Origin: a virus
Length of the DNA stretch: 25,884 nt
IMG/VR virus record: IMGVR_UViG_3300014325_000037
Location: 1 to 25,884 of that record
Strand: one strand, 5' to 3'
The notes under the pieces are model-generated. The model worked only from the letters and a program-made list of their open reading frames with translations, ran no database searches and had not been told where the DNA came from. Shown here piece after piece: positions 15,251 to 25,588 of this stretch (positions within the stretch are counted from its first letter, which is position 1; each line of letters opens with the position of its first letter). The translations under genes were made by a program, and so were the position numbers.

Positions 15251-17270
15251 ACGTGGCAGGGTCACCCACATCGCCCCAATTCCATCCGATCTCGTAATCA
15301 GCTCGCACGGGGACGCGCAGCTTGAGGCAGGTTTCCATGACGCGTTGCATCTCGCGGAATGCCTCATCCCTGCCGCCCGCATCGATGAAATCTAGTTCAT
15401 CGTGCACCGTCAGCGAAGGCACACCCGTTGCGTCGAAGATGCCGTCTTTCCAGCATTGGTGCATTGCCTTCTTCATCTGATCGGCTGCGCTGCCCTGCAA
15501 GCGACGGTTCAGTGCCTTGTGGGTATAAGCTCGCTTGATCGACCCGTACTTCATCAGCGCATTGGCATAGGTCGTCGGCGCACCGTCAACGCCGTAGCTA
15601 TCGGGTTGCCACAGATCGAACCGCGACTTGCGCCCGAGTATGGTGGTGATCGTGCCGTAAAGCGATGCCTCCTCAATACAGGCTTGCATTGTCGCTTTGG
15701 CATAGGGCGCACCCGTATGGTACGCGGTAAACATTTCCTTTGCCTTACTCGCCGTAACGCCAAGCTGGCGGGCTAGCTTGGGCTCGCCCATGCCATAGAT
15801 CAAGCCGAAGTTCATGTTCTTGATATGCGGACGCGAGATCTCGAGGTGCGCGATCTCGCGAACCATCTGCTGCGTTTGCACGTGGTAGTCGGTGTCAGGA
15901 TTCAGAGCGTAGGCGGCGCGAACGCGATCGGCCGAACCGTCGCCCTTGTCGACTGCATAGTGTGCGAGGAAGCGATACTCGATCTGCGAGTAATCGTACT
16001 TGCGCCATGGCAGGTACTCGTCGCCGAAGATTCGACGGATGCGCTTGCCGATCTCGGTGCGGATCGGGATGTTCTGTAGGTTCGGGGTGTCTGACGAGAA
16101 CCGGCCAGATCGTGTGCCACCCTTCTCGCCTCGCAGCTGGTTAAATGTCCCATAGACAATCCCGTTGACATGGTTGTCAAGGATGTAAGACTTGATGAAG
16201 ACTGAGCGCAGTTTTTCGCGCTGCCGGATATCAACGACTAGCTGGCCAATTGGGTGGTCGACGTTCTCGAGGAAGTCTGCTGTGAATGATGGCTTGCCAT
16301 CGGGGTTCTTTTCTGTCGGCGCTGTGCGGCTATATGGAATGCCATGCGTCTTGAAAGCGCGCTCGAGATCAACAGCTGAGTTCGTGTTGATCGGGAAGCC
16401 GACGATATCGCGCAGCTTGCGCTCAATGTCGACTACCTCGAGACCGAGCGACTCATACATCTCCTCCGCCCGCGGAATGTTGACAGGGACGCCGCGCATC
16501 CGCATTGCCGTAATGAGCGGGATGAGCTCGCATTCCATATGGAACAAATCGAGCAGGTTCTCCTTGTGCAGGAGCTCCCACTGATGCTCCATGATCTGCA
16601 GGGGCAGCGCGGCGTCGGACTCACCGTAAGGCCCGACGAGCGACGGCGGCGAACGATAGATGTTCTTTCGCTGTCGATCATTCGCAGGCCCGCCATAGGC
16701 GTCTGCACACCAACGGTACAAAAGTGAGCCTTCCTTGTGCAGGCCGAGGTACTTGCCTGCGAGAATATCAAGCCCGACACGAGCACGCTCATCGAGCAGC
16801 GCTTCTGCAAACTGCACGTCAAAGAGCGGACCCATGACGCGGATGCCTTCGTGCAGCAACCATCCGTAGTCATATGGTGCGTTGGCCGCGACCTTAGGGA
16901 TCTCAGGTGTCTCGAGCCAGTGCTTTGCGAACGCCATGCACTGCGCGGGATCAAGATTGTCCTCGGGCGTGTCTTCGTGCTTCATCGGGAAGTACCACTG
17001 CCCGAGATTGCCTAGCGAGTCTTTTGCTCCTAGCGAGAAGCCGACGATATGCCCTTTGCCGCGAGCCCACCCGGGGCCGGAATCGAGCAGCTCAGGATCG
17101 TATGTCTCGGTATCGAATGAGATCACTCGAGCTGCCGACAGGTTCGGAAACTCAGTCGGGGCTTTCCACCCCGTCTCGGGTACAGGCGGGCGGACACGTA
17201 TGCGATCCCCTGCCCCGCGCCCCGTTGGGACGTCCTGCCAGAACATCCCGATGTTGTCGAACCGGCTCAC
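15225..17270 (-). CDS. Family A DNA polymerase with 3'-5' exonuclease
   Basis: A 681-residue replicative polymerase of the Pol I family. The exonuclease domain has all three DEDD motifs: SFDTET (Asp53, Glu55), NAPYDYG (Asp134) and YGESDA (Asp219). The polymerase part shows TRSGRFSS (386-393), motif A DYSQIEYR (426-433), motif B RPHIKNMNFGLIYG (480-493) and motif C VHDE (622-625). In motif A a Tyr follows Glu431 where E. coli Pol I has Leu, a position near the sugar of the incoming nucleotide; motif B keeps the Phe equivalent to E. coli Phe762. No 5' nuclease domain precedes it. The start is GTG at 17270, overlapping the NADAR stop (GTGA). It is the last gene of the leftward operon, before a hairpin. 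Confidence 0.9.
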   Translation of the reverse strand: MSRFDNIGMFWQDVPTGRGAGDRIRVRPPVPETGWKAPTEFPNLSAARVISFDTETYDPELLDSGPGWARGKGHIVGFSLGAKDSLGNLGQWYFPMKHEDTPEDNLDPAQCMAFAKHWLETPEIPKVAANAPYDYGWLLHEGIRVMGPLFDVQFAEALLDERARVGLDILAGKYLGLHKEGSLLYRWCADAYGGPANDRQRKNIYRSPPSLVGPYGESDAALPLQIMEHQWELLHKENLLDLFHMECELIPLITAMRMRGVPVNIPRAEEMYESLGLEVVDIERKLRDIVGFPINTNSAVDLERAFKTHGIPYSRTAPTEKNPDGKPSFTADFLENVDHPIGQLVVDIRQREKLRSVFIKSYILDNHVNGIVYGTFNQLRGEKGGTRSGRFSSDTPNLQNIPIRTEIGKRIRRIFGDEYLPWRKYDYSQIEYRFLAHYAVDKGDGSADRVRAAYALNPDTDYHVQTQQMVREIAHLEISRPHIKNMNFGLIYGMGEPKLARQLGVTASKAKEMFTAYHTGAPYAKATMQACIEEASLYGTITTILGRKSRFDLWQPDSYGVDGAPTTYANALMKYGSIKRAYTHKALNRRLQGSAADQMKKAMHQCWKDGIFDATGVPSLTVHDELDFIDAGGRDEAFREMQRVMETCLKLRVPVRADYEIGWNWGDVGDPATFNRNERPC

Positions 17271-17707
17271 TTGCGGTTTTCAGCACGCACAAGCATTAAC
17301 AGATGTCCGAGCTTATTGAACCCGACGCCTTCACACATTCCCCAGTAGCGATCGCCCCAATTGTTACCCTCAATCAGTAGCGCGTCCCCTGTCGCCTCGA
17401 GCTTCGCGGCAAGCTCGGTTCCGCGAGCAAACTTGATCCGCAGGCAGACGAGCATTATCCCGTCTTTGACTTGCTCCCAGTCTGCACGACGTTTGAGCTT
17501 ACGCCCGCGGCGCTTTGCTTCACCAGGCGTCGGCGCAGCTAGCACCCATGCAGCTTCAGCTGGATTCGTCGCCTTTGCGGCTTGGAACGCGTGCTCGCAC
17601 GTCCGCGCAACGTCTGCGCCGAACGCAAGCGGGTGCCGACTGAAATTACTGAGGAACGAATACTCGCCCGAGAAGCTATCGATCGTTACCGAGCTAGGCA
17701 GGAACAT
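17267..17707 (-). CDS. NADAR-family N-glycosidase-like protein
   Basis: A 146-residue protein with the signature of the NADAR (YbiA-like) family: FSGEYSFLSNF (12-22), EHAFQAAK (38-45), the GEAKRRGRK basic segment (62-70), RADW (74-77), and the C-terminal TGDALLIEGNNWGDRYWG (106-123) followed by GFNKLG (129-134). Some family members hydrolyse the glycosidic bond of riboflavin precursors; others remove ADP-ribose from guanine in DNA, antagonising DarT1-type toxins. In a phage, the second activity is the more likely benefit, protecting modified or unmodified DNA from toxin-based defence. The gene lies between the clamp and polymerase genes with overlaps of 14 and 4 bases, so it is an integral part of the replication operon. 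The ATG at 17707 has AAGGA upstream. Confidence 0.8.
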   Translation of the reverse strand: MFLPSSVTIDSFSGEYSFLSNFSRHPLAFGADVARTCEHAFQAAKATNPAEAAWVLAAPTPGEAKRRGRKLKRRADWEQVKDGIMLVCLRIKFARGTELAAKLEATGDALLIEGNNWGDRYWGMCEGVGFNKLGHLLMLVRAENRK

Positions 17708-18671: not shown

Positions 18672-18834
18672 CGGTGCCACCTACGATCCTGAGCGGATTA
18701 TTCCGCCTGACAGGCTGAGTGCGCCCCGGGCAGTTCGGGCCTAGCGCAAGCGCGGCCTCGCGATCGGTGCACAAGCAGTTTTTGCACTGCATCGTGCCAT
18801 GGTTCAAACGAGATGGTCCCCAGTCATGTTGCAT
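18655..18834 (-). CDS. Short Cys-rich protein between dpdA and the clamp gene
   Basis: A 59-residue reading frame fills the 150-base gap between the DpdA-like gene and the clamp. Its ATG overlaps the dpdA stop (TGATG, 18836-18832), and its end overlaps the clamp start by 17-26 bases, the coupling style used throughout this operon. The protein has an N-terminal HDWGPSRLNHGTMQCKNC stretch followed by LCTD and a later NCPG. The His/Trp/Gly-rich start with CxxCxC and a distal Cys suggests a small zinc-binding module like those common in phage proteins. It was found by translating the gap by hand. The role is unknown; small zinc proteins here might accompany DNA-modification enzymes. Confidence 0.6.
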   Translation of the reverse strand: MQHDWGPSRLNHGTMQCKNCLCTDREAALALGPNCPGRTQPVRRNNPLRIVGGTDVKRS

Positions 18835-19784
18835 CAGAATAGCCCCGGTGTTTCTTGCACGTATCGCGTTGCTGGCTCACGTAGATCCACGTAGTGCGGG
18901 AACGCCCAGCAGTTGTATGCCCACCTTGCATAATACAGCTCGCGCAAACGGTCAATGTCCTGACCGTCCCCTAACACGATTTCTTTCCAGATCGGCTCGC
19001 GCATCACGTCGGGCAACGAGTCGTAATGCTGCAAGTGCATCTTGCGGGCCGAGCTCTGTGCAGACACGTTGAGCTGTCGGCCGCTTGTGGGCATGAGCAC
19101 TAGGCCGTTCGCCGCCCACTGCACCCACGTCGAGGAATCAACCGACCACCACGGATACTTGAGCATGAGCTGAAGCGCCGTCAGCGAGAACGCATGAAAC
19201 TTCGTCTTCGGCGTTCCGTCTGGATTGCATGTCCGCTCGAAGACCTGCTTGAACCAAGACTCGAGCGAGAACAGGTCAGAACGGATCAGGCCACCGAGCG
19301 CGATGTACTTATACTTGCTCACGTAGTAGTCGAGGTATTCCCATGGTTCGCCATAGTGGAAACATGGCAGAGGCTCGCACCCCTGCCGTTCCATCTCCTC
19401 CTGGTTTCGCCACGACATTTCGGCCGTCTTCGCTTTCGGGTAGAACTCGCCGCCGGGCCCGCCGATAACGTCGAGCGGTGCAATCATCTTGATGCCTTCG
19501 TCCCTCGCTATCACGTCATCATTCTGGTGAATGAAGTCGCAGTAGTGAGACATGTCGATCGTCGTTCCCAGCGTGAAGGCTGAGAAGGCACCCGAGTCCA
19601 AGAATATCTTAACGCCGTCGCGCCGAATGTGCTCCAGAGCCCGGCCCGACTTGATGTAGTGAAACGATTCCAGGTACCACTTGTTGGACCTGCGCTTCGC
19701 TTGTTCGTCGGGCGTGAGCTTCTGAAACACGGTACCCGTGTAGCTGAAATTGGAAGTATACAACCCTGCATTATACAGCTTCAC
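18834..19784 (-). CDS. dpdA: DpdA-like DNA 7-deazaguanine transglycosylase
   Basis: A 316-residue protein related to tRNA-guanine transglycosylases and to the phage DpdA enzymes that replace guanine in DNA with a 7-deazaguanine. Recognisable features in order are FLDSGAFSAF (61-70, active-site Asp63), APLDVIG (102-108, Asp105), CFHYGEPWEYLDYY (141-154), YIALGGLI (160-167), and HAFSLTALQLMLKYPWWSVDSSTW (197-220), where Asp216 fits the nucleophile Asp of the TIM barrel. The start is GTG at 19784, six bases after GGAGG, and overlaps the end of the GIY-YIG gene by 14 bases. Its stop overlaps the next small gene (TGATG). The base inserted depends on the pathway genes at 23415-25522. The subfamily cannot be assigned by eye. 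Confidence 0.85.
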   Translation of the reverse strand: MKLYNAGLYTSNFSYTGTVFQKLTPDEQAKRRSNKWYLESFHYIKSGRALEHIRRDGVKIFLDSGAFSAFTLGTTIDMSHYCDFIHQNDDVIARDEGIKMIAPLDVIGGPGGEFYPKAKTAEMSWRNQEEMERQGCEPLPCFHYGEPWEYLDYYVSKYKYIALGGLIRSDLFSLESWFKQVFERTCNPDGTPKTKFHAFSLTALQLMLKYPWWSVDSSTWVQWAANGLVLMPTSGRQLNVSAQSSARKMHLQHYDSLPDVMREPIWKEIVLGDGQDIDRLRELYYARWAYNCWAFPHYVDLREPATRYVQETPGLF

Positions 19785-20951: not shown

Positions 20952-21698
20952 CTACGGGCGTTTCACGAGCTCGTCAAACAAGCCCATGAGTCCTGGCAAG
21001 TGAGGCCGCAGCAGATCAATGATCGCATAGGCGTAGATCTGCGCCTCGATTTGGGCATGGCTATGTGCCCGCAACGCGAGGAACTGAAACATGTTGCCGA
21101 GATCGACATTGCCGAGCCAATGCACGTAATGGTTGACGTGCAAGAACATGCGCGCATGCTCAGGTGCAACGCCATCAGCGATTGCCATCGTGTAGTCTTC
21201 ATACCCGTGAGCGCAGGCGAGGTTCAGCTTCTCTTTGAACCAGCGTTGTGTGTGCTCGGGCAGGTTGTCGGCTTGTCCCTGCTTCGCGTTCGGAGCCTTG
21301 CCGCCGACGATCTTTGGAATATACCACTCGGGCGGCAGCGTGATATAACGGCCAGAGGACTCGTTGCGCCGCCAGGTGCGGTGCCGCACGAGTTGACGAT
21401 CCACGAAGATCGGCACCTTGACTTCGAGCCAGACCGAGATCATCTCGAAAGGCGACGTGTGCCGGTTTTGCAGCAGGTAGCGGCACAGCTTCATATCCTG
21501 CTCATACGTGCGCTCGGCGTCCAAGTTGTCGAATGACATCCGAGCAGCGTTCGCGGGGTCAGTGTCGTCGGCGTCGAACTCGCGCCAGGTGATATGGCTC
21601 TCGCCTGGCACCTTGAGGTCGGCTGGTTCATCGAACGCGCGGCGCGTCGGCCCTGCGAGATTGCGGAGGATGACGAAACCGTGGTCAAGTACGTTCAT
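20952..21698 (-). CDS. thyX: Flavin-dependent thymidylate synthase ThyX
   Basis: A 248-residue enzyme that makes dTMP from dUMP with FAD and NADPH. It shows HTSPFE (80-85), the ThyX motif RHRTWRRNESSGRY (105-118) and the C-terminal FLALRAHSHAQIEAQIYA (206-223) with Arg210. The usual motif is RHRxxSxNExSxRY; here the first Ser is Arg110 while the catalytic Ser of RHRx7S (Ser115) is kept. The ATG at 21698 has AAAGGG six bases upstream; an upstream extension would run through the adjacent gene. It overlaps the DUF3310 gene by 14 bases. Together with MazG-like and DUF3310 it belongs to the nucleotide pool part of the operon. Confidence 0.9.
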   Translation of the reverse strand: MNVLDHGFVILRNLAGPTRRAFDEPADLKVPGESHITWREFDADDTDPANAARMSFDNLDAERTYEQDMKLCRYLLQNRHTSPFEMISVWLEVKVPIFVDRQLVRHRTWRRNESSGRYITLPPEWYIPKIVGGKAPNAKQGQADNLPEHTQRWFKEKLNLACAHGYEDYTMAIADGVAPEHARMFLHVNHYVHWLGNVDLGNMFQFLALRAHSHAQIEAQIYAYAIIDLLRPHLPGLMGLFDELVKRP

Positions 21699-22077
21699 GG
21701 CGTGCCCTTTCGGCAATGACGAGATCGAGGATGACGTGGATCTCATCGAGATTGTACCCGCGCCACAGCAGGCGAGCAATCGTCTGCGTGAACTCGGGCT
21801 GGTCGACAATGCGGTCATGGAGGAACGCAGCGGGATCGGCGAGGTCGAAGATCAGCGGCGCGGTGCGCATGGCGATGCCCGCGGCAGCAAGGTTCGCAAA
21901 GAGCTGGCATTCGCTGTCAGCGTACCACGCAGCCTTGCCGAGCTCTACGACGGCTTCATCCTTTCGCGTGAGGCGCCAGCAGTATTTCAAGATCTGAAAC
22001 CCGTTGGCGGTCAATCGCTCGCCGATGTCCGCGCATGCTCGGCCCGCGTAGTGCGCGGGATTGATTGGATCGCTCAT
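21685..22077 (-). CDS. DUF3310-family protein (gp1.7-like)
   Basis: A 130-residue protein with DPINPAHYAGR (3-13), the hallmark opening of DUF3310 (SaV-like) proteins, followed by QILKYCWRLTRKDEAVVELGKAAWYAD (28-54), the conserved helix with the YxxR and KAxWY pattern. The family includes T7 gp1.7, described as a nucleotide kinase, though the activity is not visible in the sequence here. The C-terminal half (FDLADPAAFLHDRIV, FTQTIARLLWRGYNLDEI) is extra. It overlaps both neighbours (ATGA upstream, 14 bases downstream), placing it between MazG-like and ThyX as a nucleotide-pool gene. Confidence 0.75.
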   Translation of the reverse strand: MSDPINPAHYAGRACADIGERLTANGFQILKYCWRLTRKDEAVVELGKAAWYADSECQLFANLAAAGIAMRTAPLIFDLADPAAFLHDRIVDQPEFTQTIARLLWRGYNLDEIHVILDLVIAERARHERT

Positions 22078-22427
22078 TGTTTGTCTCGGCGCTCAGCCGC
22101 CTCTTCATCCGTATAGCCTGCACGGTAGCGGACATCGAGCTTCGCCATATTGCCGAGCAGCGTTTCCTCGCGCGTGATGCCGAGACGTTGCCGCAGCCCC
22201 TCCATGAAGAACTCGAGGTCGCCAAGCTCCTCGATCACGTTCGCCCGATCGAGCGGCTTCTGATAAACAGCCCAGCGCTTGATGGCGTCAAGGCATTCGC
22301 CGCCCTCGCCTGCGATCCCTGTCGCCATATGCCATGCGTCGGCCTGCTCGGGTGTCATGCGAGCGATGATATCCTCGCCAGGCTTCTTCTTGCTCGCGAC
22401 GAATGCCGCGTAATCTGCAACGCTCAT
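22074..22427 (-). CDS. MazG-like nucleotide pyrophosphohydrolase
   Basis: A 117-residue all-alpha NTP pyrophosphohydrolase. The metal-binding pattern ExxE...ExxD is present as Glu41, Glu44, Glu67 and Asp70 in GIAGEGGECLDAIKRW and VIEELGDLEFFMEGL. Such enzymes hydrolyse (d)NTPs to the monophosphate and PPi; in phages with modified DNA they can remove canonical or unwanted dNTPs or provide dNMP substrates. The ATG is preceded by GAGGG and overlaps the stop of the upstream gene. Its own end overlaps the DUF3310 start (ATGA). Confidence 0.85.
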   Translation of the reverse strand: MSVADYAAFVASKKKPGEDIIARMTPEQADAWHMATGIAGEGGECLDAIKRWAVYQKPLDRANVIEELGDLEFFMEGLRQRLGITREETLLGNMAKLDVRYRAGYTDEEAAERRDKQ

Positions 22428-23404
22428 AGAATACCCTCACGCTTGACGCTGATAGCGTCGTTTATGCCCCATTTGGGCGGAAAGAACGGATCGGGCATCG
22501 GTGCCCCCACCGCGCGGTTATATTTCTGCTTGATGCGCTCGCGACCGGCTTTGCCCTTGATCTCGGGATGAGCGACGCGTGAGTACTTGCTGATCTCGCA
22601 GAACAGGTTTTGGCAATCGATCGGCTGGAGCCGTCGACCGAACAACCCCGGGAACTCGATGCCGAGTCGTGCAAACTCGTAGTCTTGATGCTGCGTAATC
22701 AGCATAACGACGTCTTCCGGCTTTCGCCGTCCGATATCGCTAAAGCACTTGCTGATCCCATCGAGCGCGCCGGGGCCGCACACCACGAACGATGCTTCGT
22801 CATGATCGATCAGCGACGAGTAGTTTAGATCGATGGTATATTGGAAAGCCAAAAAGGGTCCAAGGCCTGAGTAAGCTAGAAGCAGATCATACACCTGCTT
22901 GAGCCCGCGCGCCTGCTGCATCCGAGCAGGCAGCTCGTCTGCAACCATTTTGTATAGTAGCCGAAGGTGGTTGGCATGTTTACGCCCGCCGCCGTAGCTT
23001 GGAATATCCGGCATGATATATGCAGCAGAGTAGACGGGTGTCTTGCCAGCGAAGATGCCGTCGAGTATCGTAACCGCCCCGTCCCAGTTAAAGCCGTTGA
23101 ACTCGATAGGGCCTAAGCCGAGCTCGAGAAGCTCCCACGTAGTCACATTGTTGAATAGCTTGAAAAGCATTGTCCGGAAGAACACGTCAACAGGAGCTTG
23201 GCTGCGATGATCGGCATATTGCACTTCGCGGATCAAGTATTGGCTCACGCGATCGGCTGCGCGATACGGGTTCGTAAACCTGTACTCGCGCAGTATCGGA
23301 TCATCTGTCCATGGGCCTACGGTGCTCGCAAGCCGACGCAAGTACGTAGCTTGTCGCTCGGCGGCAAAGCGCCAGTAGGTATCGAGACAGACGGTCGGCG
23401 TCAT
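22424..23404 (-). CDS. Protein resembling the 5-hmdU DNA kinase helical domain (aGPT-Pplase2)
   Basis: A 326-residue protein with the signature of the group named alpha-glutamyl/putrescinyl thymine pyrophosphorylase type 2, seen as the helical domain of 5-hydroxymethyl-dU DNA kinases: TYWRFAAERQATYLRR...GPWTDDPILREYRFTNPYRAADRVSQY (9-56), LLAYSGLGPFLAFQYTIDL (175-193) like a helix-hairpin-helix, WVVCGPGALDGI-type segment (VVCGPGALDGISK, 207-219), and DCQNLFCEISKYSRV (263-277). No P-loop is visible; GKT at 120-122 lacks the GxxxxGK context. Known relatives act in thymine hypermodification, so its role beside guanine modification genes is unclear; DNA glycosylase-like binding is possible. The ATG at 23404 follows GAGGA; an upstream extension lacks support. 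Confidence 0.65.
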   Translation of the reverse strand: MTPTVCLDTYWRFAAERQATYLRRLASTVGPWTDDPILREYRFTNPYRAADRVSQYLIREVQYADHRSQAPVDVFFRTMLFKLFNNVTTWELLELGLGPIEFNGFNWDGAVTILDGIFAGKTPVYSAAYIMPDIPSYGGGRKHANHLRLLYKMVADELPARMQQARGLKQVYDLLLAYSGLGPFLAFQYTIDLNYSSLIDHDEASFVVCGPGALDGISKCFSDIGRRKPEDVVMLITQHQDYEFARLGIEFPGLFGRRLQPIDCQNLFCEISKYSRVAHPEIKGKAGRERIKQKYNRAVGAPMPDPFFPPKWGINDAISVKREGIL

Positions 23405-23414
23405 CGTGCTATCC

Positions 23415-24302
23415 TCAATTGGCCAGCTGCAAGAATTCTTGGCGAGGCAGGCCCTCGAATAGCACGCCTCTGAGCGAGCTTGTGACCGTGTGGTGCCCTT
23501 GCTGGCATACGCCGCGCGATTCCATGCAGAGATGGCGCGCCTTGACAATGACACCGACGCCTAGGGGCTTCAAGTGTTCCATGATCGCATCAGCGACTTG
23601 ACCCGTCAGACGTTCCTGCACCTGCAAACGCCGCGCGTAGCAATCGACCAGACGATTGATCTTCGACAGCCCGACGATCTTACCGTCTGGAATATAGCCG
23701 ACAGTCGCCGTGCCAAAGAACGGGGCCATGTGATGCTCGCAGTGCGTGTAGAACGGGATGTCTTTGACAAGCACCATCTCGTTGACGCCTTCGGCACCGT
23801 CCTCGAAGACTTTGAGGATTTCTTCTGGCTTCTCGTCATAGCCTTTGCACCAGAACTTCCACGCGGCCGCGACCCGAGCTGGCGTCTCCTCGAGACCGCC
23901 ACGCGTTGGATCGTCACCGATATACTGGATCAAGCGCGTAATGTGGTCGGCGATCCCTGTCTTCGCGTCACCTTCCCACGGCCAGACAACCCAGTCGTTT
24001 GCGTCGCCCCATGACCGCTTATCGATCAGCGCGAACACGGGCTTCCCGTAGTGCGCAAACTTCGCTGCCGTCGCTCCCGTGTCGATCAGATCGTCCATGA
24101 TGAAGTTAGCTTGCGCTGGATCATCAACGAGCATGAGCGAGAGCGGCGTGCCGAACAGCGCGAGCGTTGCAGGTACGCCCCCTCGCGGAATAGCATACAC
24201 CGACAACGTCTGATATGCGGTTGGTCCGAAATACTCGCGGATAGCATCAGCGCAGTTGAGCGCAAGCGTATTGAGCTGGCTATATGAGACGTTGTGGATC
24301 AT
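23415..24302 (-). CDS. folE: Phosphoribosyltransferase-GTP cyclohydrolase I fusion
   Basis: A 295-residue two-domain protein. Residues 1-108 resemble a type I phosphoribosyltransferase: AIPRGGVPATLALFG (37-51) and FIMDDLIDTGATA (67-79), the PRPP-binding acidic loop. Residues 118-295 are GTP cyclohydrolase I: LEETPARVAAAW (137-148), FYTHCEHHMAPFFG (184-197) with zinc ligands Cys188 and His191, GLSKINRLVD (211-220), QVQERLTGQ (227-235) and ARHLCMESRGV (255-265) with Cys259. FolE converts GTP to dihydroneopterin triphosphate, the first step to 7-deazaguanine. The fusion partner may supply or salvage nucleotides. It overlaps the queD stop (ATGA); the ribosome site is weak, so translation is probably coupled. 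Confidence 0.85.
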   Translation of the reverse strand: MIHNVSYSQLNTLALNCADAIREYFGPTAYQTLSVYAIPRGGVPATLALFGTPLSLMLVDDPAQANFIMDDLIDTGATAAKFAHYGKPVFALIDKRSWGDANDWVVWPWEGDAKTGIADHITRLIQYIGDDPTRGGLEETPARVAAAWKFWCKGYDEKPEEILKVFEDGAEGVNEMVLVKDIPFYTHCEHHMAPFFGTATVGYIPDGKIVGLSKINRLVDCYARRLQVQERLTGQVADAIMEHLKPLGVGVIVKARHLCMESRGVCQQGHHTVTSSLRGVLFEGLPRQEFLQLAN

Positions 24303-24772
24303 ACCGAAAACTTGCCCCCTTCGTAGATTGCAGCATTGCCGCCGTGCTCGCGCACCATGACCGATTTAATGTGGAGCCCGCGCGCGTCGATCGAGTGCAG
24401 ATAGTTCGCATGAAGCCACTCGTCTACGACGCCATAGGCGTGCTGCGCGAAGGCTTCGCATCCGACAGTCGGCAGCACCAGAATGTCGCGGAAGCCCCAC
24501 TTTGCATAGAGCGCCTGGAAGTCGGGCAAAGCGGGATCGTTGGCTGCGAGCACGGTGCGGTGATCGAACTCGTCTGCAAGCCGTTCCTTGATCGGCTTGA
24601 GCCCGCCGAAGTCGAGGACCCAGTTGTTATTGTCGAGGATCATTGCACCGAAGCGCAGCCCGAACGCGAGCGGGTAGCCATGCGGATCCTTGCAGTGGCT
24701 TTCCGCCCCGGGTTGACGGAAGCAGGTGCTCCAGCCAAGCGTGTGGTCGTATAACTTGTCTATGTAGAACAT
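24299..24772 (-). CDS. queD: 6-carboxytetrahydropterin synthase-like protein (QueD)
   Basis: A 157-residue protein of the QueD/PTPS family, which turns dihydroneopterin triphosphate into 6-carboxytetrahydropterin. Alignable features are CKDPHGY (27-33), equivalent to CxxxHGH, WVLDFGGLK (51-59), ADEFDHRTVL (66-75, catalytic Asp70-His71) and VMVREHGGNAAIYEG (138-152, Glu142). By eye, only one of the three usual zinc His ligands (His31) is kept: the first is replaced in WSTCFRQP (14-21) and the third by Tyr33. Cys17, His26 or Tyr33 may compensate. The ATG at 24772 follows GAAGGG at six bases; the longer GTG start is less likely. It lies between queE and the FolE fusion and overlaps the latter by four bases. 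Confidence 0.75.
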   Translation of the reverse strand: MFYIDKLYDHTLGWSTCFRQPGAESHCKDPHGYPLAFGLRFGAMILDNNNWVLDFGGLKPIKERLADEFDHRTVLAANDPALPDFQALYAKWGFRDILVLPTVGCEAFAQHAYGVVDEWLHANYLHSIDARGLHIKSVMVREHGGNAAIYEGGKFSV

Positions 24773-24826
24773 TCGCGTCCCTTCGATTACGCCGAGCACA
24801 ATAGCCGCGACGTGTTTCCAGGCGGG

Positions 24827-25522
24827 TTACTCGAGGCCGAGTACCTTGTGGATTTGGATCTGCAGCGTGTGCCCGTGCGCCATGGCGCTGTCGATCGTGG
24901 CACGGGTGTTTGCCTGGTTGAGCATCGGGTCGAGCTCATCCATGGGCTGCACGTAAACAGGGGCGCCCGGGCGGGGCCTCGCGACGACCGGCGACGCGGG
25001 GTGGCCGAGTGCGATTGTGGGCAAGCCATCGTCGGCGATCTCGCCGTCCCGCAAAACATACTTGAAGGCCATTGCCCGCTTCATGATCTCGTCACTGATG
25101 CGGCTCGTCTTCGGCGAGCATACGATCGAGAATTTCTGGAAGTGGTCGAGCGCTTCGATCCCCGGCGGTGCGAGCACGCCATTGGTTTCGACCTGCACCC
25201 GCCAGCCCGCGGTGATGAGCGCGTAGATCGCTGGGAACACGTTTTGCCGGAACGGCTCGCCGCCCGTCAGCACGATCAGCGCGCCAATCGGCCACTCGAG
25301 CACGCTAACACCGTTGACGAGCTCGGCGGGCGTCATGTTGTGACGCGTTTCGGTATATTCGGTATCGCAGCCCGGGCAACGAAGGTTGCAGCCGTATAGC
25401 CGAATAAACAGGGCACGCTCGCCGCAGAACGGCCCCTCGCCTTGGATCGTTTTGAAGATCGAGTGTACGTCGATTGATCCGTCCAAGCGATAGTCGGCGG
25501 CGATGGGTTTCTGCTCGTTCAT
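24827..25522 (-). CDS. queE: 7-carboxy-7-deazaguanine synthase (QueE)
   Basis: A 231-residue radical SAM enzyme that makes CDG from 6-carboxytetrahydropterin. It has FKTIQGEGPFCGERALFIRL (23-42), typical of QueE, CNLRCPGC (45-52; the CX3CX2C cluster Cys45, Cys49, Cys52), LTGGEP (85-90), VETNG (111-115) and VQPMDE (191-196). A full-length QueE, first gene of the leftward operon, directly after its promoter. The ATG at 25522 has GGAGGG just upstream. The 54-base gap to queD contains no visible structure. The presence of queE with queD and folE argues that the phage makes its own 7-deazaguanine precursor. Confidence 0.9.
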   Translation of the reverse strand: MNEQKPIAADYRLDGSIDVHSIFKTIQGEGPFCGERALFIRLYGCNLRCPGCDTEYTETRHNMTPAELVNGVSVLEWPIGALIVLTGGEPFRQNVFPAIYALITAGWRVQVETNGVLAPPGIEALDHFQKFSIVCSPKTSRISDEIMKRAMAFKYVLRDGEIADDGLPTIALGHPASPVVARPRPGAPVYVQPMDELDPMLNQANTRATIDSAMAHGHTLQIQIHKVLGLE

Positions 25523-25541
25523 ATGCCCTCCATAAAGGGCG

Positions 25542-25571
25542 ATCATAGGGGGCAACCTTAGTTTTTTGCAA
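25542..25571 (-). promoter_or_regulatory. Sigma-70-type promoter of the leftward operon
   Basis: On the minus strand TTGCAA (25571-25566, four of six) is followed after 18 bases by TATGAT (25547-25542, five of six). It lies in an AT-rich stretch unlike the rest of the window, between a terminator upstream and the queE ATG at 25522 downstream. Transcription would start near 25535, leaving a leader of about a dozen bases with GGAGGG. Confidence 0.6.
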
Positions 25572-25588
25572 ACGAAAAATAAGGGCAT

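Follow-up and report, generated by a model that had tools for sequence, protein, structure and literature searches.

A stand-alone 5-hmdU DNA kinase helical domain protein beside viral deazaguanine genes, a possible base-handling module of host origin

Helical domains of the HMUDK_hel family ("5-hmdU DNA kinase, helical domain", Pfam PF18723) are tied to phages that hypermodify thymine, as the preliminary description of the locus reported here had rightly stated. SN1, an M6-like phage, has an HMUDK_hel protein with the annotation aGPT-Pplase clade 1; its gene lies beside a P-loop kinase, near a TS-type hydroxymethylase. Clade 2 corresponds to PF18724, the amino acid:DNA transferase (ADDT). A stand-alone member is gp38 of Brevibacterium phage LuckyBarnes, which has no kinase beside it; its neighbours are a thymidylate synthase and two TAGT glycosyltransferases. 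The family also occurs in bacterial cassettes with TS-family, MazG-MazG_C, DCD, ThsB-TIR, Nmad2 and ImmA genes. DefensePredictor lists aGPT-Pplase, MazG, MazG-C, dUTPase and NMAD as predicted defence domains without experimental validation, and describes, as a separate result, an E. coli system that was validated and contains a 5-hydroxymethyluracil kinase (PMC13092281).

The window, that is, the whole stretch of DNA analysed here, is an entire IMG/VR record of 25,884 bases, and for this genome the gene searches covered that 25.9-kb fragment. The preliminary description had placed in it a 326-residue ORF without a P-loop kinase part, and both statements held. The gene, hereafter HEL, lies on the minus strand at 22424-23404, with an ATG start at 23404 and a TGA stop at 22424. 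The HMM search that had been proposed as a check matched HEL to PF18723 with an E-value of 2.6e-97 and 326 bits (cut-off 25), far beyond chance. Profile positions 3-281 of 281 were covered, which makes HEL a full-length member. The WTDDPIL.EYRFTN and QN.FCE.SKYSRV patterns noticed earlier start at residues 32 and 265. All residues invariant in a 74-sequence alignment, window protein included, were present (N45, R48, D51, A128, F184, Q188, D192, G210, G216, Q265, C269, E270, K273 and Y274). The M6-like SN1, ViI-like and SP10 phages carry the same full-length domain with the same invariant residues, but at just 22-28% identity to HEL; LuckyBarnes gp38 was the best named phage relative (36% by tblastn). 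PF18723 was the sole Pfam match of HEL at E ≤ 0.1, PF18724 was not matched, no kinase profile matched any window ORF, and neither NCBIfam nor PADLOC had a model matching HEL. Solved structures, searched by sequence, gave no real match. The earlier assignment to the "aGPT-Pplase2 / 5-hmdU DNA kinase helical domain" was correct in the domain and not in the clade: HEL belongs to clade 1, because the SN1 HMUDK_hel protein is annotated as such and PF18724 is clade 2.

The AlphaFold2 model of HEL was all-alpha and confident (pLDDT 95.7). Its best viral fold match was the 5-hmdU DNA kinase of Bacillus phage SP10 (E 4e-14), with weaker matches to ADDT proteins. The latter have a similar predicted fold but form a separate family; homology by profile comparison was rejected (hhalign E 0.098, not significant), and the likeness is by fold only. 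The best PDB matches were HhH-GPD DNA glycosylases, with weak scores (E 0.14, probability 0.89). Kinship of the predicted HEL fold with these glycosylases is likely but not proven, because the best PDB E-value was only 0.14. The position of the HhH-GPD catalytic Asp, judged by eye, fell outside the PF18723 invariants.

The minus-strand gene order in the window is QueE, QueD, FolE, HEL, MazG-like, DUF3310-like, ThyX, methyltransferase, GIY-YIG, DpdA, clamp, NADAR and DNA polymerase. Pathway genes for 7-deazaguanine DNA modification (PMC6884629) are thus encoded: QueE (24827-25588; phrog_2076, 4.3e-49), QueD (24299-24799; PF01242, 1.1e-10), FolE (23415-24302; PF01227, 2.1e-66) and the guanine transglycosylase DpdA (18834-19784; phrog_887, 1.5e-57), all on the minus strand. 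FolE has an N-terminal extension (23955-24302), read by eye as phosphoribosyltransferase-like, which was matched in 33 other phage records; where annotated, these matches were mostly GTP cyclohydrolases. On the other side of HEL, also on the minus strand, are a MazG-like NTP pyrophosphohydrolase (22074-22427; PF03819, 3.4e-4, just below the curated cut-off; bacterial MazG-MazG_C profile, 1e-4), a DUF3310-like protein (21685-22077; PF11753, 1.6e-4, below the cut-off) and the flavin-dependent thymidylate synthase ThyX (20952-21698; PF02511, 1.1e-35; TIGR02170). The company of DpdA and ThyX claimed earlier is therefore real. The MazG-like start lies over the HEL stop, and the DUF3310-like gene overlaps both of its neighbours. 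These overlaps of 4, 4 and 14 bases suggest that HEL, MazG-like, DUF3310-like and ThyX may share a single transcript.

Profile searches of the window ORFs gave no match to a TS-type hydroxymethylase, an M6-type kinase, a TAGT, an ADDT or QueC. HEL in the window thus has neither the kinase nor the hydroxymethylase that accompany its SN1 counterpart, nor the thymidylate synthase and TAGT setting of LuckyBarnes gp38. It shares a MazG-domain neighbour with the bacterial cassettes, but their DCD, TIR and Nmad2 genes were not found in the window, and near HEL there was no TS-family or MazG_C domain, only the MazG-domain gene and ThyX. The MazG-MazG_C profile touched the MazG-like gene alone.

The sister phage G067 (contig L201), near-complete at 59.6 kb, is collinear with the window and keeps the block from QueE, QueD and FolE to ThyX and DpdA, including the DUF3310-like gene. 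DNA identity was 75% for the DNA polymerase, 74% for DpdA (77% identity in a separate comparison), 71% for QueE/QueD, 70% for FolE and 68% for ThyX/DUF3310. The alignment stops at 22072 and restarts at 23400, which are the bounds of the MazG-like and HEL pair (22074-23404). Both genes are missing from G067, and their slot holds two unrelated genes, one of them nucleoside deoxyribosyltransferase-like. As G067 keeps the deazaguanine block without HEL, the block does not need HEL, and the most economical reading is that the pair is accessory cargo, lying between ThyX and the deazaguanine genes. Compared with G067, the window has three insertions; the pair is one, and a NADAR-domain gene (17267-17707; PF08719, 8e-22) between the clamp and DNA polymerase genes is a second. 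The GIY-YIG gene is likewise absent from G067. Some members of the NADAR family remove ADP-ribose from guanine in DNA, and the window gene is a possible counter-defence candidate. QueC was found neither in the window nor anywhere in G067, and the same profile detected it in the majority of the other phages examined; this lineage may rely on 7-carboxy-7-deazaguanine or on preQ0 made by the host.

The closest relatives of HEL were bacterial. A scan of bacterial genomes gave 71 HEL loci, with 56-62% identity over the whole protein for the nearest ones. In the tree, HEL was nested in a 28-row clade (SH-aLRT 99) that is otherwise bacterial, mostly Alphaproteobacteria, except for phage contig L093, its nearest row. 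A TS-family gene and/or MazG-MazG_C was present in 60 of the 71 loci, and deazaguanine genes in none. Recurrent neighbours were MazG-MazG_C, two TS-family groups, DCD/dUTPase-like, ImmA/IrrE, papain-like, Nmad2, ThsB-type TIR and holo-ACP-synthase-like genes. The catalytic cysteine was kept in 31/31 and 8/8 members of the two TS-family groups; the larger group (F3) and its plasmid counterpart had no Pfam match and are called TS-family by the cysteine motif, for the plasmid gene also by annotation. Plasmids carry the family too, for example in Allocoleopsis, with the order acyl carrier protein-HTH-ImmA-TS-HEL-MazG. On an Erythrobacter aureus plasmid (L231:7300-12670), HEL overlaps dnaQ by 4 bp, and after HEL comes a dnaE gene that is also carried by the plasmid. 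The bacterial loci L022-L046 combine HEL with holo-ACP-synthase-like genes and small acyl-carrier-like DS-motif proteins, whose acyl-carrier likeness was unconfirmed by Pfam; their gene content suggests acyl or aminoacyl chemistry. A MazG-like reading by eye of L093:9372-9992 and L201:7051-7743 was dropped, as Pfam did not confirm it.

Among 84 viral HEL contigs collected by codon pattern, 62 had a TS-family gene within 4 kb of HEL, 29 a kinase and 15 a TAGT glycosyltransferase; kinase and TAGT never occurred together, and no DpdA or Que gene was near HEL. Of the 44 contigs of at least 9 kb, 30 had TS no more than 2.5 kb away from HEL, with 12.5 expected for a random position. Since its neighbours vary in this way, HEL is not bound to its namesake kinase. 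Eight phage cassettes (L105, L114, L128, L137, L152, L167, L180 and L190) combine a TS-family gene, HEL and TAGT with no kinase nearby, and L150:1526-3034 is a natural fusion of a thymidylate kinase (PF02223) with HMUDK_hel. The nearest viral HEL is in G006, a whole record of 78.8 kb, which encodes no TS, M6-type kinase, TAGT, ADDT or MazG_C.

We give about an even chance to the reading that HEL serves as a module for handling 5-substituted uracils, accessory cargo that originated in a host cassette and works on the dU/T side rather than with DpdA. As a stand-alone, all-alpha module remotely like HhH-GPD DNA glycosylases, it would most likely hold a 5-substituted uracil of the 5-hydroxymethyl-U type, in DNA or as a nucleotide, for a partner enzyme. 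Candidate partners are a kinase or a glycosyltransferase, presumably encoded by the host or elsewhere in the phage genome. We infer that HEL and its MazG-like neighbour were gained together, the probable source being a TS/MazG_C/HEL cassette of an alphaproteobacterium, and would have been inserted between the deazaguanine genes and ThyX. Against the base-handling reading count the lack of a partner gene (TS, M6-type kinase, TAGT, ADDT, MazG_C) in the window or in G006, the weak matches behind the glycosylase-like fold, and a likeness to ADDT that is by fold only.

A rather unlikely alternative, in our judgement, is counter-defence, in which HEL, as a copy taken from a host of one part of the bacterial HEL/TS/MazG_C/TIR cassette, would block, mimic or consume the product of that system. 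This would be consistent with its closeness to host-type cassette proteins with every invariant residue kept, with the lack of partner genes in both the window and G006, and with the NADAR gene among the three insertions relative to G067. Related domains are also predicted to be defensive, and the validated E. coli system has a 5-hmdU kinase domain (PMC13092281). In most phages, however, HEL is found within modification cassettes. Doubtful, too, is a more specific version, by which TS-family, MazG-MazG_C and HEL proteins would form a bacterial immune or modification system whose product, a nucleotide or base of modified thymidine type, has TIR/Nmad2 as its read-out, and the phage HEL would be a stolen, intact counter-measure.

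The preliminary description had proposed either two base modifications in one genome or a role of the domain in the guanine pathway. Two modifications, hypermodified thymine and 7-deazaguanine, with the hydroxymethylase and the kinase or glycosyltransferase encoded outside the window, are possible but unsupported by this fragment, and we consider them quite improbable. They would fit the typical role of HEL in phages and the nearby ThyX, and HEL also co-occurs with ThyX and no ThyA-type TS, as in the window, in G016, G053 and Nodularia phage 2AV2. However, a search of near-complete G067 for thymine-modification genes, including a TS-type dUMP hydroxymethylase, gave none, partner genes lie close to HEL in most phages and not in the window, and the usual product of ThyX is dTMP. 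A substitution of ThyA by ThyX in HEL phages is no more than an idea, drawn from few lineages.

As for the guanine pathway, the conserved linkage with DpdA in other phages that had been named as its test was not found. PF18723 was detected in 0 of 30 related FolE/DpdA phage records; the controls of this search gave no match, but the search was able to detect HEL, because the same model matched the window and 16 other viral records. Conversely, of 50 HEL-bearing virus records, several of them fragments in which absence is not proof, one (G006) had a DpdA-family gene, a distant one, and no convincing QueE was present in any; a single radical-SAM-like match of 22 bits was disregarded. The G006 gene was set aside as linkage support: tblastn gave no match between it and the window DpdA, its region lies ~40 kb from HEL, and G006 has no Que genes. 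Although HEL adjoins FolE and a DpdA-family gene occurs in G006, a part in the deazaguanine pathway (PMC6884629), e.g., base recognition for DpdA, is very improbable and largely refuted by G067.

Under the preferred reading of HEL as a base-handling module, an accessory cargo gene in the window is told apart from the deazaguanine pathway next to it. Although its name comes from the 5-hmdU kinase, the helical domain is not bound to kinases: in phages it occurs with glycosyltransferases, and in bacteria it recurs with TS, MazG_C, TIR and Nmad2 genes, without an M6-type kinase or TAGT. Its own function is probably base recognition. HMUDK_hel thereby links phage thymine hypermodification to poorly known bacterial defence-type cassettes.
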